A DNA stretch of 64,000 nt from Lutjanus erythropterus. Taxonomy: Eukaryota > Chordata > Actinopteri > Lutjaniformes > Lutjanidae. Below the pieces are notes generated by a model, which was given only the letters and a program-made list of their open reading frames with translations, did not search any database and was not told where the DNA came from. Position 1 is the stretch's first letter, and each line of letters begins with the position of its first letter. Made by a program: the position numbers and the translations under genes. The stretch covers positions 1,840,585 through 1,904,584 of the forward strand of contig CM034611.1 of NCBI GenBank assembly GCA_020091685.1. The letters are read 5' to 3'. Below, piece after piece: positions 13,692 to 36,690 of this stretch.

Positions 13692-16600
13692 ATGGCTCCC
13701 CTCCGCTGCCTGCCACATTCAATACAGCAAATTAATATGCCATTAACGGCGCCGATGGGAGAAAGGGCCCACTCTTGTCTAATCATCATATAATGGGGGA
13801 GCGGTAACTTTCCAAACTGTCAGGAGGCAGCAATACATGTTAAATATCACCTTCACCTGCCATGTTGATCACGCTACACGCGATGAGGTGGGAGAGACTG
13901 TGAGCGCGCTCAGCTGTCAATCACAGCTATAAATGAATCATAATTATTGTAATTTGGCAGGGGGAACATACACCCCGTGTGAAAGCGGCCCAAACTCCAG
14001 CTGAAAGTTGTTTGAGCTGCAGGGTAATTGTTGATTGAGTGCCGGCTGTAATGATGTTGCCGGAGCGCGGTGGCGGGCGGCGAGGTAATGCGGTTACCGA
14101 TTGACAAACAACGCAAATGTCCCCCCGCCGCCGCCGCCGCAGAGCCGGGAGCTAATTATGCTGTAATGATAGCCCTGCTGTTATGGACCTCCCAGGCCAC
14201 CGTACCGCTAATGTCATTATACCTCCCACATCCACCATGCACTCCGAGAAGGAAGGGTTCCAAAAGGGTTCTTCCTCAGGGTATGAGGTTCCACCCTCCG
14301 TTTTCCCATTGATGATGACGCTGTTGTTATGATTGACCTCATCTGTAGAATACAAGACTGTTCTTCTTAGAACCCACAGAAGACAAGAGGGTGTGGGTTC
14401 TAGATGAAACCCACAGAATATAGAAGGGTTCTCAATAGAATCTCTTGGCTGAGTTGTAGTTGAAACCCACAGGATATAAAAGGGTTCTCAGTAGAACACC
14501 CAGGTGGTTTCAAGATGAAATCCATGGAATATAAAAGGGTTCTTGGTGGAACCGCCTGTGTGGGTTCTCTTTGAAATACAAAATGGTTCTTGGCAGAAAC
14601 CCATGGGTGGGATCTAGATGATTTATATTATAAGAGGGTTCTCCCCCTGTATAGGTTCTAGATGAAATCCATGGAATATAAAAGGGTTCTTGGTAGAACC
14701 TCCTGTGTGTGTTTTAGATGAGACCTTGTTTAAAGCATTACTGTTAGAACCTTATGGACTGGTTTTAGATGAAACCCTCGGAACATAAAAGAGTTGGAGT
14801 GGGTGGAACAATTACACCAAAGAAGGTTTTTCTAAACAAAAATAGTTACATAAACTCAATTTCTTTAAGTCAGATGTAATCTGATTACTTTCAAATCAAC
14901 AGTTTGAATTGATGCAACTTAAATTTAGGGGAAGTCAAATTAAACTTTTTCAAGTTGATTCAGTTTTTGTAAACTGAACTTGTTCAGTTTGTTAAATCTA
15001 ATCAATATGATTGATAACATTAGCATGACTTAATGTTAGCCTGACTCATCAATAACTGATTCAGTGATTTTAAGAAAGTTTAACCAATTCTGATTGACAG
15101 TCCTGGTGATTTTCTGATCGATTTATTAACTTATTGTTTGGAATAAAATTTGTTTGTTTGTTTTTACTATTTATTGATAAAATATTTCCTTTTATTAATA
15201 ATGATGATCCGATCATCAGATTCTGTCGGAGTAGAACCTCCTGCGGCGCCCAAATATCTCCTGATCAACACACATCAATAACTCCACATTAACATAACGC
15301 TGACTCAGTGCTCACACAGCTGTTATAACAATAAACGATAACACAATATCTAAAACTGGATTAAGGCTCCGGTGCAGAGCTGCTGATCCTGGAGCTGTTT
15401 ATCTGACAGTCCAGCTGTGAGGTTCTGCAACGTTCTGTCTGGAGCTTTTCTTGTTCTTGTATTTTTGCTTCTGCTAAATGAACATAAAGATTTAAAACAC
15501 AGATCAGGGTTCTCAAAGTGGAACACATTCTTGTGATATTAGCTAAAAACTCTAAGAATAAAGGCACCACAGTGGTTCTTCCTGATGGCCTGAGGTTCCA
15601 CCCACAACCATTTGCTTCTGAAGAACTTTGTTTTGAACAAACAGTTTGTCAGAGACTCTTTGTAGGCCTGAAGGTTCCATTTAGAACCCTTTCTGGAAGA
15701 AAAAAGTTCTTTAAGGATTGTTGAAATACTTTAAAACTCTTTTGTAATGGTTTGTGCTACCATAATATAAAAGGGTTCTCGCTAGAACCATTGGAATATA
15801 AAAAAACGTCATCTTTAGGACAGTTTGGGTGGGAACTCTTGGAATATAAACAGGTTCTGAGTTGAACCCCACTAGTGTGTTCTGGATAAAACCATTAGAA
15901 TATGGGTGGGTGAGTCGGAATATAAAAAGGTTCCCAATAAAAACAAAAGAGACTATGAGATCAATAATAATAATACAATAAAAAGTTGAAATAATTATAT
16001 TTAGTCATAAATATGAGATAGAAAAGTTTCGGGAAAAGTCATAACTATCAAATAAAAAGTCATAATTATCAAATAAAAAGTCATAATTATGAGATAAAAA
16101 GTGAAAACTAGTCATCTGAATGTAAAAGCTCTGAAGACAGTGGTGCAGTCTGGGGTGGGGCGCAAGAAAATTTTCCTTATTCTCAAATGCTAATATTGAC
16201 AGGTGAGACAGGTGAGACAGGTGAGACAGTAACGCATCACTAACCCTGCTGTAACCTGCTGCTAGCATGATGCTAACACAGCGTCACCAGATGTTGAAAC
16301 AAAACGAGCTGCTAACATCAGTTCAACCCAGCAGAGACAACTTAGACACGATGAGGCTCAGCTGGTGGCTGTAGGGCGGCTTTGAGGCCGTCTGATGGAT
16401 TAATGTGGTCCCAGAGCAAAGCCTCATGGGATGCAAAGTCCAGTGTGTGTCCTCCAGAAAAAAGCCCTCTGGGAAATGTAGTCAAACATTGTTTTCTGCC
16501 AGAAAAAACTACATAGAGAAAACACACGTGTGTGTGTGTGTGTGTGTCCACCTCACAACACAGCTTGTCACTGTGGCGCCACAGTGGTCGGGCATCACTC

Positions 16601-21362: not shown

Positions 21363-21523
21363 CTGCGGGTTACCTACCCTCTTGTCTTTGAAGTAGTACG
21401 GGTCGATGTCTTCCAGGGGAACGCCCACCAGATGAGACGGGATGTCGGCGAAGATGCGCGGCAGCTGTTTTCCTGCCTCCAGGTCGGGCCGGGGCTGGGG
21501 GAGCACCACGTCGCCCAGGTCCT

Positions 21524-21606
<83 letters not shown>

Positions 21607-21893
21607 CAATACCTCTGAAATACATCTCACATCTGCCTGCTTAAGCTGCCTCACATCTCTTCATTTTATTCTTGTTTTAACTTCCAATATCTCGTCTTCT
21701 GGCTCCTGTTTTATGTTGATTTAATAATAATAATGCTTTCAAGTGTGTGTGTGTGTGTGTGTGTGTGTACCTCCTGGTATTGTTTGTTGAGTCGGGCATG
21801 CTCCTGGGCGATGCGCTGCTCGATGGCCGCCAGGGAGTCCGGCGTGAAGCGCTGAAAGCTCTCTGGTCCCATTGGAAACACACAGCCAGCCAT
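9733..21893 (-). CDS. Voltage-gated sodium channel alpha subunit, N-terminal part (Nav1.5/Nav1.4-like), 5' five coding exons, partial
   Basis: This is the 5' end of a gene for the pore-forming subunit of a voltage-gated sodium channel, a plasma-membrane protein that carries the rising phase of action potentials. Joined exons 21893-21771, 21521-21378, 19270-19152, 12407-12318 and 9861-9733 give one open frame of 605 bases (201 codons plus 2 bases). Residues 1-127 are the cytoplasmic N-terminus with the family signatures [22 protein letters not shown] and [17 protein letters not shown]. Residues 128-148 are segment S1 of domain I, 160-180 are S2 ([20 protein letters not shown]), and 187-202 lead into S3 ([17 protein letters not shown]). 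E169 and D195 match conserved acidic residues of the voltage sensor. All phases agree. Exon lengths 119, 90 and 129 match conserved SCN exons. S4, the pore and domains II-IV lie beyond the left edge. Family identity is certain. The paralogue is not: SPFHPIR, KYxEYTF and DFSVI-MA favour a teleost Nav1.5-like gene, while the extreme N-terminus also resembles Nav1.4. Confidence 0.95.
9862..12317 (-). other. 2456-bp U2-type intron between the fourth and fifth coding exons
   Basis: The donor is GTAAGT. The acceptor has a TCTAAC branch motif followed by a (TCC)n tract. Inside are a foldback element (10318-10641), a short CAG repeat (10172-10191) and otherwise unremarkable AT-rich sequence (10650-12300) in which I see no gene. 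Confidence 0.85.
10318..10641. mobile_element. Foldback short element, copy 1
   Basis: The left arm has 'accaaactccacagtcattt' and cacaggagtcgctgctctac. The right arm has the inverted form, ggcaacggcagagcagcaac and ttttgtcaatggggtttggt. The arms surround an AT-rich centre. It lies in the intron 9862-12317. Confidence 0.65.
12318..12407 (-). CDS. Fourth coding exon of the sodium channel gene (90 bp; domain I S1)
   Basis: The first base completes S129, then [19 protein letters not shown] and [10 protein letters not shown] follow, and GA begins E159. This is the domain I S1 helix and the S1-S2 loop. It starts directly after a non-canonical AC acceptor (CTGCTCAC|ATTATT) and ends at a strong donor, GTAAGT. 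Relative to the usual family pattern NCVFMTMSxPPxW, this copy has CC for CV, A for T and PA for PP. That is a mildly divergent extracellular loop but an intact helix. Confidence 0.96.
12845..13076 (+). repeat. TTTATGATTTATTACAGTA repeat family, copy 2
   Basis: Contains tgccaaactccattaatatt, 'aacatctactccttttataa' and tcattttatgatttattaca. It lies in the AT-AC intron about 440 bp from the fourth coding exon. Confidence 0.75.
13453..13690. repeat. Two direct (TG)n microsatellites
   Basis: Pure tracts at 13453-13515 and 13630-13690, separated by 114 bp of unique sequence. Confidence 0.95.
13695..14170. other. Candidate conserved non-coding island in the AT-AC intron
   Basis: About 470 bp of unique, balanced-composition sequence between a TG tract and a repeat element. 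It is rich in homeodomain-type cores (attaatatgccattaacg, ataattattgtaattt) and has agctgtcaatcacagct, which resembles a Meis/Pbx site. No frame looks like a channel exon. Conservation is inferred only from appearance. Confidence 0.35.
14239..14836 (+). repeat. GGTTCT/AGAACC element, copy 3
   Basis: Head at actccgagaaggaagggttc followed by about eight degenerate 'gaatataaaagggttct' units. It sits inside the AT-AC intron. Confidence 0.8.
15547..15945 (+). repeat. GGTTCT/AGAACC element, copy 4
   Basis: Head ctctaagaataaaggcacca plus the 'aaccatttgcttctgaagaa' motif, then 'ggaatataaa' units; the tail is lost. Inside the AT-AC intron. Confidence 0.75.
15998..16110 (-). repeat. Small 21-bp minisatellite cluster in the AT-AC intron
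   Basis: About five units of 'aaaagtcataattatcaaat', with two consecutive identical copies at 16041-16080. Confidence 0.75.
16529..16737. repeat. Inverted TG/CA tracts with a poly-C run
   Basis: (TG)10 at 16529-16548, short (CA)n at 16616-16632 and 16652-16662, then C13 and (CA)n at 16707-16737. Confidence 0.9.
17331..17442 (-). repeat. GGTTCT/AGAACC element, copy 5 (inverted, head only)
   Basis: The reverse complement reads as the family head: acactttaagaaattaaggt and then ttccaaaagggttcttcctg. It ends after about 110 bp. It has the opposite orientation to the copies at 14.2 and 15.5 kb. Confidence 0.8.
17784..18000. repeat. Inverted (TG)n and (CA)n pair
   Basis: (TG)n at 17784-17826 and (CA)n at 17936-18000, about 110 bp apart; the single-stranded form could make a long stem. 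Confidence 0.9.
18411..18746 (+). mobile_element. hAT-like non-autonomous element with CAGGGCTGCAA ends, copy 1
   Basis: Starts cagggctgcaactggcaatt and ends aacttttgcagctcta, an imperfect inverted terminal pair. The interior has the 'caaagatattcagtttact' segment shared with 28425-28800. Confidence 0.7.
18984..19019. repeat. (CA)18 microsatellite in the AT-AC intron
   Basis: 36-bp pure tract, about 125 bp from the U12 donor; reads (UG)n in the transcript. Confidence 0.9.
19152..19270 (-). CDS. Third coding exon of the sodium channel gene (119 bp; end of cytoplasmic N-terminus)
   Basis: Encodes residues 90-128 plus two bases of S129: [18 protein letters not shown], then [22 protein letters not shown]. 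The acceptor TTTCTTGCAG is a standard U2 site with a CT-rich tract. The exon ends CACTC at 19152, and the next bases are ATATCCTTCC, a U12-type AT-AC donor, not GT. The length of 119 bp and phase 2 exit match the orthologous exon of vertebrate sodium channel genes. No internal GT donor would preserve the VHS-LFS junction. Confidence 0.97.
19768..19855. mobile_element. Solo terminal-repeat fragment of the Tc1-like element
   Basis: Contains AAAAACAGAATGTAAAGA and TTTACAAATCATTTTCGACT, matching the terminal repeats of the element at 2990-4160, preceded by a degenerate AAAAAAGTTGGGAA. Only one end is present. Confidence 0.6.
20735..20985 (+). repeat. TTTATGATTTATTACAGTA repeat family, copy 3
   Basis: Contains tatacatctactctttctac, 'gtggtcgttttatgatttat' and tttctcctttaaa, matching copies 1 and 2. 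Confidence 0.75.
21128..21358. repeat. Two (CA)n microsatellites after the second coding exon
   Basis: 21128-21208 (with a TATA interruption) and 21317-21358; both read (UG)n in the transcript, near the donor of the 2107-bp intron. Confidence 0.9.
21378..21521 (-). CDS. Second coding exon of the sodium channel gene (48 codons)
   Basis: Phase 0 to phase 0, encoding residues 42-89. It begins [20 protein letters not shown] and ends [21 protein letters not shown] and PLEDxDPYY are hallmark N-terminal sodium-channel motifs. The acceptor is (TG)n-TCAG with no conventional polypyrimidine tract; the donor is AGG|GTAGGT. In most vertebrate SCN genes this segment and the preceding exon form one exon of about 265 bp (here 123 + 144 = 267), so the intervening intron looks additional. 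A second long (CA)n tract lies about 20 bp beyond the donor. Confidence 0.95.
21522..21770 (-). other. 249-bp intron with (AC)n at its 5' end and (UG)n at its 3' end
   Basis: On the transcribed strand the intron starts GT followed by about 13 AC repeats (plus 21743-21768) and ends with about 40 TG repeats (plus 21525-21605), then TCAG. The two tracts are reverse complements and could pair, leaving a loop of about 137 bases and placing the splice sites side by side. Complementary AC/GU intron ends are known in teleosts and are reported to reduce dependence on the polypyrimidine-tract factor U2AF2. There is no other pyrimidine tract at this acceptor. Confidence 0.85.
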
Positions 21894-21935
21894 CTTCTCA
21901 TCCTGATCCTGCTGCTGACTGGCCCAGTATACCAG
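21771..21935 (-). CDS. First coding exon of the sodium channel gene (41 codons, plus 42-nt 5' UTR)
   Basis: The exon probably begins at 21935, after a strong acceptor (CTCTCTGTCTGCAG) with a pyrimidine-rich tract, so at least one upstream non-coding exon is expected. The start codon at 21893 lies in a good Kozak context (AAGATGG) and gives [16 protein letters not shown], then [20 protein letters not shown]; sodium channels start with this kind of short M-A-x lead before the FxRFTxESLAAIE motif. The exon ends in phase 0 at 21771, where the donor reads GAG|GTACAC. The frame is open upstream of this ATG to 21995, but family alignment supports 21893. An out-of-frame ATG sits 8 bases upstream, at 21901. 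Confidence 0.92.
21894..21935 (-). promoter_or_regulatory. Proximal 5' UTR with an overlapping out-of-frame upstream ATG
   Basis: This is a 42-nt leader between the presumed acceptor and the start codon. An ATG at 21901 (context AGGATGA) is in the +1 frame relative to the channel and stays open through the rest of the exon. It overlaps the main start and so could lower initiation at 21893, although the main start has the stronger context (A at -3, G at +4). Confidence 0.5.
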
Positions 21936-35716: not shown

Positions 35717-36060
35717 TCAGTTCATATTCTGGTCAAGGTCGTATTGAAGATAAAGTGTTTTATAGGCGTCGTCAAATCCTCATCAGACAGTAAAGGAAGA
35801 GACTCAACCCTCCAAACCTACTGTCAACCTTTAAAAAACATTTTACACATTTAATTTAATTTAATTACAACAACATATTTTTTCTTCTACTTGGACAGAA
35901 TGTGTTTTCTGCTCTGAGAGGATGAAAACTCAACACCTCTGATGCCAAAACTCTTTCAAAAAACACTGGAATTAATTCATTAATTATACGACATGTTCCT
36001 TTTCACACAAATACAGGTGAAAAATATTCAACTCACAAATGTTTTTCATTACAGTTTTGT

Positions 36061-36690
36061 GTTTCCTTCTCTCCTTGCTCTATTTCTTCCGTCCTTCTCC
36101 CCTTGCTTCGCTCCTTATTTCTCTCCTTCCTTGTCTCCTCTTGCTTCCTTTGTTAATTCTTCCCTCCTTGTCTCTTGGCTTCCTTTACTATTTCCTCCTT
36201 CTTCCATTCTTTCCTTCCTCTCCCTGTTCCTTCCTTCCTTCCCTCCTTCCTCCTCCATTCCTTCCTTCTTTCCTTCCTCCATTCTTTCCTTCTTTCCTAC
36301 TTTCCCTCCTCCTCTTCCTTCCTCCTGTGTTTCCTTCTCTCCTTGCTCTATTTCTTCCGTCCTTCTCCCCATGCTTCGCTCCTTATTTCTTTCCTTCCTT
36401 CTCTCCTTACTTCCTTAGCTATTTCATTCTTACTTCTCTCCTTGCTTTATTTGGTTATTTCTTCCTTCTTCCATTCTTTCCTTCATCCTTCTGTTCCTTC
36501 CTTCCTTCCCTCCTTCCTCCTCCATTCCTTTCTTCTTTCCTTCCTCCATTCTTTCCTATTTTCCCTCCTCCTCTTCCTTCCTCTTTCTTCCCTTCTTCCT
36601 CTCTCCATGTTTACGTTCTTTCCTTCCTTTGTGCGTCCCTTCCTTCCTTCCTTCCCTCCTCGTCCTTCTGTCTCACAGCGTCTCTCGTTG
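36061..36690. repeat. Polypyrimidine (CCTT)n tract with an internal tandem duplication
   Basis: About 620 bp almost entirely C and T on the plus strand. The block starting gtttccttctctccttgctc at 36061 recurs at 36329, and 'ccattctttcctt' at 36204 recurs at 36471, giving a duplication period of 267-268 bp. Long frames here (F, L, P, S only) are artefacts. Confidence 0.9.

Follow-up and report, generated by a model that had tools for sequence, protein, structure and literature searches.

A short sodium channel intron with complementary (AC)n and (TG)n tracts at its two splice sites: a candidate AC/GU-bridged intron in a fish genome

A 249-nt intron near the start of a voltage-gated sodium channel gene opens with GT(AC)13 and closes with (TG)40-TCAG on the transcribed strand, so placed that the two repeats abut the two splice sites. 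The reading that we favor, and regard as probable on balance, is that this is a U2-type intron in which a hairpin between the 5' (AC)13 and the 3' (UG)40 aids splicing and offsets poor binding of U2AF2. The two tracts would pair in the pre-mRNA; the hairpin would set a weak donor beside the acceptor, pairing these two splice sites; and it would make up for the poor U2AF2 binding, as in the published (AC)m-(GU)n introns of zebrafish. On that analogy, the pairing would favor splicing and ease the dependence on U2AF2.

The window, the whole 64,000-nt stretch of DNA that was analyzed, is C21:1840585-1904584 of a 937.6-Mb genome, and the gene holding the intron lies on its minus strand. The features on which the argument turns are as follows.

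Before 21935, minus strand: presumptive acceptor ...TGTCTGCAG/ at the start of the first coding exon, placed from the sequence.
21771..21935, minus strand: first coding exon, with 42 nt of 5'UTR, an ATG at 21893 and a translation ending in NKQYQE; identified by translation and by homology to human Nav N-termini.
21522..21770, minus strand: candidate bridged intron, 249 nt, phase 0 (GAG/GAC), GT-AG, its boundaries taken from the gapless homology at the junction.
21743..21768, minus strand: (AC)13 tract right after the GT, read directly from the sequence (donor GAG/GTACAC).
21606..21742, minus strand: intron core, 137 nt, matched nowhere else in the genome; contains the putative yUnAy-type branch site.
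21525..21605, minus strand: (TG)40 T tract, read directly from the sequence, where a polypyrimidine tract would be expected.
21522..21524, minus strand: CAG acceptor, read directly from the sequence.
21378..21521, minus strand: second coding exon, 144 nt, 48 codons, with a translation ending in YYFKDKR and donor AGG/GTAGGT.

An earlier, sequence-only reading of this DNA had proposed the intron at 21522..21770 with these same repeat-bearing ends, which are exactly as it described them, and its exon boundaries agree with the homology. The spliced reading (...NKQYQE/DLGDVV...YYFKDKR, 129 aa) aligns to human SCN2A at E=2.9e-45, gapless across the junction, and the frame stays open on through exons 3, 4 and 5. 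An exon boundary at another place is ruled out, since homology to human Nav fixes the junction, and stop codons rule out in-frame retention of the 249 nt: if retained, the intron leads to an in-frame stop after 19 codons. With GT-AG ends and a conserved spliced frame, it is most likely a U2-type spliceosomal intron. Exon 2 is 144 nt long, so its skipping would keep the frame and yield an isoform minus 48 residues.

The same reading had placed the intron in the N-terminal coding region of an ion channel, and homology bears this out. All 31 PDB sequences that match the spliced N-terminal reading are named as sodium channels or fusions thereof, and more domain-I exons of the Nav gene were found to the left of the window in a search with six probes, five of which (D1a, D1b, D2, D3, D4) were Nav consensus pieces; of these, only the D1 probes gave matches in the DNA searched. 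Pfam returned no family for the N-terminal piece of the gene. The best human match is SCN2A for the N-terminus, and SCN9A, then SCN3A and SCN5A, for the D1 exons, with no single Nav type favored. The Nav genes of zebrafish are described as four named gene pairs, eight genes in all (PMC12467315), and on the strength of elimination among these pairs the window gene is most likely a voltage-gated sodium channel alpha-subunit of the scn5L type.

Two further features of this gene may be recorded here. Its intron 3 (19151-12408, minus strand, 6744 nt) is AT-AC and U12-type in look, with donor ATATCCTT and acceptor CTTTAACCTGCTCAC; the donor ATATCCTT follows exon 3 in eight of the nine Nav loci of the genome, with ATATCTTT in the ninth (C12). 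AT-AC introns are known in Nav genes. Two alternative domain-I S3-S4 exons (IKVGNLQALRTFRV / VDLGNVSALRTFRV) lie to the left of the window at about -3070 and -4514 on the minus strand (about 6930 and 5486 of L002), and look like the mutually exclusive pair known in Nav genes.

The splice signals of the bridged intron are poor at both ends. Its donor, GAG/GTACAC, agrees with the U1 consensus at five of nine places. The last 20 nt before its CAG are 50% pyrimidine with a longest pyrimidine run of 2 nt, as against 60-90% and runs of 5-32 nt at six other acceptors of the same gene, the weakest of which, that of exon 7, shows 60% with a longest run of 5; it is the sole acceptor without a run longer than 2 nt among the seven compared, a set that takes in neither the AT-AC acceptor nor the one of exon 6a. 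The polypyrimidine tract that had been said to be missing is therefore missing. Intron 5 of the same gene carries (AC)42 from +10 of its donor (window 9732-9639, minus strand), and the acceptor compared for it, that of exon 6b, has ordinary pyrimidines, so that the lack of pyrimidines goes with the presence of both tracts. The nearest AG upstream of the bridged acceptor is 91 nt away, and within this AG-free zone there is one good yUnAy-type branch site, TTGAT, whose presumed branch-point A, at 21606, lies 84 nt upstream of the exon. Such a branch-site-to-exon distance counts as long, and fits with a structure that shortens it.

The earlier claim that the repeats adjoin both splice sites and are complementary is borne out. 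With 60 nt of exon included on each side, the AC bases are predicted to pair with the TG tract at a mean probability of 0.999, and in this model the branch site lies partly in paired sequence. As its centroid fold, the intron is predicted to form an AC-TG stem of 26 bp with a few inner pairs. The register of the pairing is not sharply set: it ranges along the TG tract, with 27 exact registers available. Cross-pairing accounts for about 42 kcal/mol in the model (-74.6, vs -32.5 with the AC tract replaced by TG). Taken as a whole, the intron folds in no extreme way: of 200 dinucleotide shuffles, 9 do as well, and of 300 random pieces of 249 nt, drawn from 12 background 10-kb stretches of the genome and averaging -55.5 kcal/mol, 31 are as low as -74.6. 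The model also has the donor G 51% and the donor U 89% paired, so that helicase action or invasion by U1 would be needed; a paired donor could hinder U1.

Could the length of the TG tract tune expression of the channel, as the earlier reading suggested of repeat length? The energy model argues against fine tuning of this kind, because the AC tract stays fully paired when (TG)40 is cut to (TG)20, the paired fraction falling only at 10 TG units (0.77) and 5 (0.38). Predicted pairing also persists with the AC tract shortened to 3 units.

One alternative is that the (UG)40, half of which is U, acts alone, via TDP-43 or CELF proteins that set the inclusion of exon 2, with the AC tract as a bystander or an hnRNP L site. 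CELF proteins bind UG, and hnRNP L binds AC repeats. By analogy, the (UG)40 tract is a likely TDP-43 site: upstream of the acceptor of CFTR exon 9, TDP-43 is described as binding UG repeats, many UG units with few U's repressing the exon (PMC12171016). This precedent makes the alternative a serious one, and the in-frame exon 2 would give it a product in the shortened isoform; we nevertheless consider it a possibility of the minority kind. The CFTR effect is repressive, whereas exon 2 here encodes conserved N-terminal channel residues, whose constant repression would be costly. Moreover, the AC tract occupies 26 of the 81 bases of the TG tract in the model and leaves the remainder free, so that UG binding and the hairpin of the favored reading could coexist.

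A second alternative is neutral microsatellite growth: two arrays grew by chance against the splice sites, and ordinary factors splice the intron. The surroundings lend themselves to this, as (AC)n/(TG)n arrays with at least 10 units occur at 0.53/kb (76 arrays) in a 144-kb gene region (window 1-64000 plus an 80-kb flank), about five times the 0.10/kb (12 arrays) of 12 other 10-kb stretches taken as background. Among array pairs spaced 20-500 nt apart in the region and stretches together, those with AC before TG are the least frequent of four types (10, vs 16, 26 and 31). Genome-wide, the pattern GT(AC)6..(TG)6TNAG was counted in three length bands against a reversed-pattern control, all counts being lower bounds: there were 13 matches vs 19 at 221-251 nt, 2 vs 7 at 101-131 nt, and 8 vs 9 at 281-311 nt, or 23 vs 35 in sum, with one place on C18 (L029) falling in two bands. 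As bare DNA, then, the AC...TG arrangement is unremarkable (13 vs 19 reversed). When the flanks of all 13 matches in the 221-251 nt band are joined, only those of the window intron stay open for 100 of 100 codons in one frame; the flanks of one other match (L023) are open for 95 codons and the rest for at most 80, and the upstream flank of another (L028) is coding-like. Given these counts and the near-uniqueness of joined open flanks, the strict abutting arrangement is rare and without enrichment in this genome over the three length bands, and a thriving class in this strict form is ruled out here by the same comparison with reversed controls.

These counts, of pair types and of genome-wide matches, speak for chance growth. 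Against it stands the position of the arrays: the expectation for AC within 2 nt of the GT and TG within 4 nt of the AG is about 1e-6 per intron at local array density, which for an assumed 250,000 introns comes to 0.26 such introns at local and 0.009 at background density, by a crude estimate that assumes the arrays to be independent. Furthermore, if an ordinary pyrimidine signal gave way to the growing TG tract, its loss has to be made good in some way. We judge neutral growth unlikely.

Other repeats in the window are of different kinds. A 600-bp pyrimidine-rich, TTCC-like stretch with a 267-bp repeat unit lies at 36058-36660. A 54-56 bp unit related to AGAACCTTTTTATATTCCAAGGGTTC forms short tandem arrays at 14393, 25464, 38320, 40210, 41734, 43646 and 44465; these arrays occur in both orientations, as a dispersed repeat.

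The sodium channel paralogues of the same genome offer a comparison for the bridged intron. A search of the genome gave 22 matches and, with C8 (E 0.46) and C18 (E 7.8) left out as weak, nine Nav loci, the others among which we take, from N-terminal motifs, to include scn1L, scn4 and scn8 types. In six of them (C13, C24, C10, C6, C2, C20) the first coding exon runs uninterrupted across the intron site, and C13, the sister gene, is gapless against the window gene across the junction. Human SCN genes are not known to have an intron at this place. C19 and C12 carry phase-0 introns of 783 and 204 nt within about one codon of the window's, and AC and TG runs in the two do not exceed 4 nt; among the three split Nav genes, only the window's intron bears repeats. 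Predicted folding energies per nt are -0.30 kcal/mol for the window intron (-74.6 in all), -0.26 for that of C19 (-205.8) and -0.15 for that of C12 (-31.1). The C12 locus has peculiarities of its own.

C12:397950-398750 (L036): additional Nav-like locus; its first coding exon is split, and its second part diverges (DLEAEK, HRFNAEPSCY).

This locus may represent a decaying copy, or else a ninth Nav gene, additional to those eight that are named in zebrafish.

In a tree of the N-termini (125-134 residues from nine fish loci plus two shorter human pieces), the window gene groups with C13 (100/99) and C19 with C12 (98/99), C20 joining the latter pair (99/98), while four of the eight inner branches are weakly supported. 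The presence and absence of the intron over the nine loci implies that it was either gained twice or is old and was lost several times; on this tree, by a hand count, two gains explain the pattern, and an ancestral intron calls for roughly three losses or more. As the source of the intron, an insert of transposable or introner type is ruled out, as a 140-nt query from the core matched only itself genome-wide in a search that skips very common words. A bolder scenario, which we put forward as quite improbable, is that the intron was gained after the duplication that separated this gene from its sister, that pairing of its complementary repeats allowed the new and weakly marked intron to be spliced at once, and that the same spot was used independently in another Nav clade. 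If true, this would mean that repeat bridging is one way in which fish genes come to keep new introns.

Whatever its origin, the intron offers a test of structure-dependent splicing in compact natural form: it is 249 nt long, its donor is weak, a pyrimidine tract is missing and its repeats abut the splice sites. Readouts are built in: retention would bring a premature stop, and skipping of exon 2 an in-frame isoform. Since the sister gene lacks an intron at this place and two paralogues have repeat-free introns at nearly the same codon, the absent, unbridged and bridged states are all found within one gene family of one genome. New here are the paralogue comparison, the self-only match of the core and the absence of genome-wide enrichment of the strict form.

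Three known systems invite comparison. The introns of C19 and C12 share with the window's their phase 0, their position in the same variable linker to within about a codon, and a preceding Glu codon; they differ in being repeat-free (AC/TG runs of 4 nt or less) and in belonging to another Nav clade. The (TG)m(T)n acceptor of CFTR intron 8/exon 9 likewise has a UG repeat right upstream of a pyrimidine-poor acceptor. Unlike CFTR, as far as its description in PMC12171016 goes, the window intron has an AC partner; it also has no T run after the TG tract, and 40 units as against about 11-13.

The closest likeness is to the (AC)m-(GU)n introns of zebrafish and other vertebrates, which are reported from about a tenth of zebrafish genes. 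In these, an AC repeat close to the donor and a GU repeat close to the acceptor are described as folding across the intron, with splicing that has no need of U2AF (PMC9198270; PMC9508853; PMC9024468); intron 5 of cep97 is one example, and the folding energy of such bridged introns is given as 50-100% lower than that of conventional introns of like length (PMC9024468). The window intron differs in that its tracts abut both splice sites directly, in a TG tract three times longer than its AC tract, and in a strict form that is not enriched in its genome. It shares with them AC at the donor, GU at the acceptor, a predicted hairpin and a branch site that is partly paired in the model. The earlier suggestion of a resemblance to teleost AC/GU-bridged introns is thus well founded in anatomy, insofar as the class is described in PMC9198270, PMC9508853 and PMC9024468, and by that anatomy and its predicted pairing the window intron is plausibly a member of this published class, a kind of intron already known.
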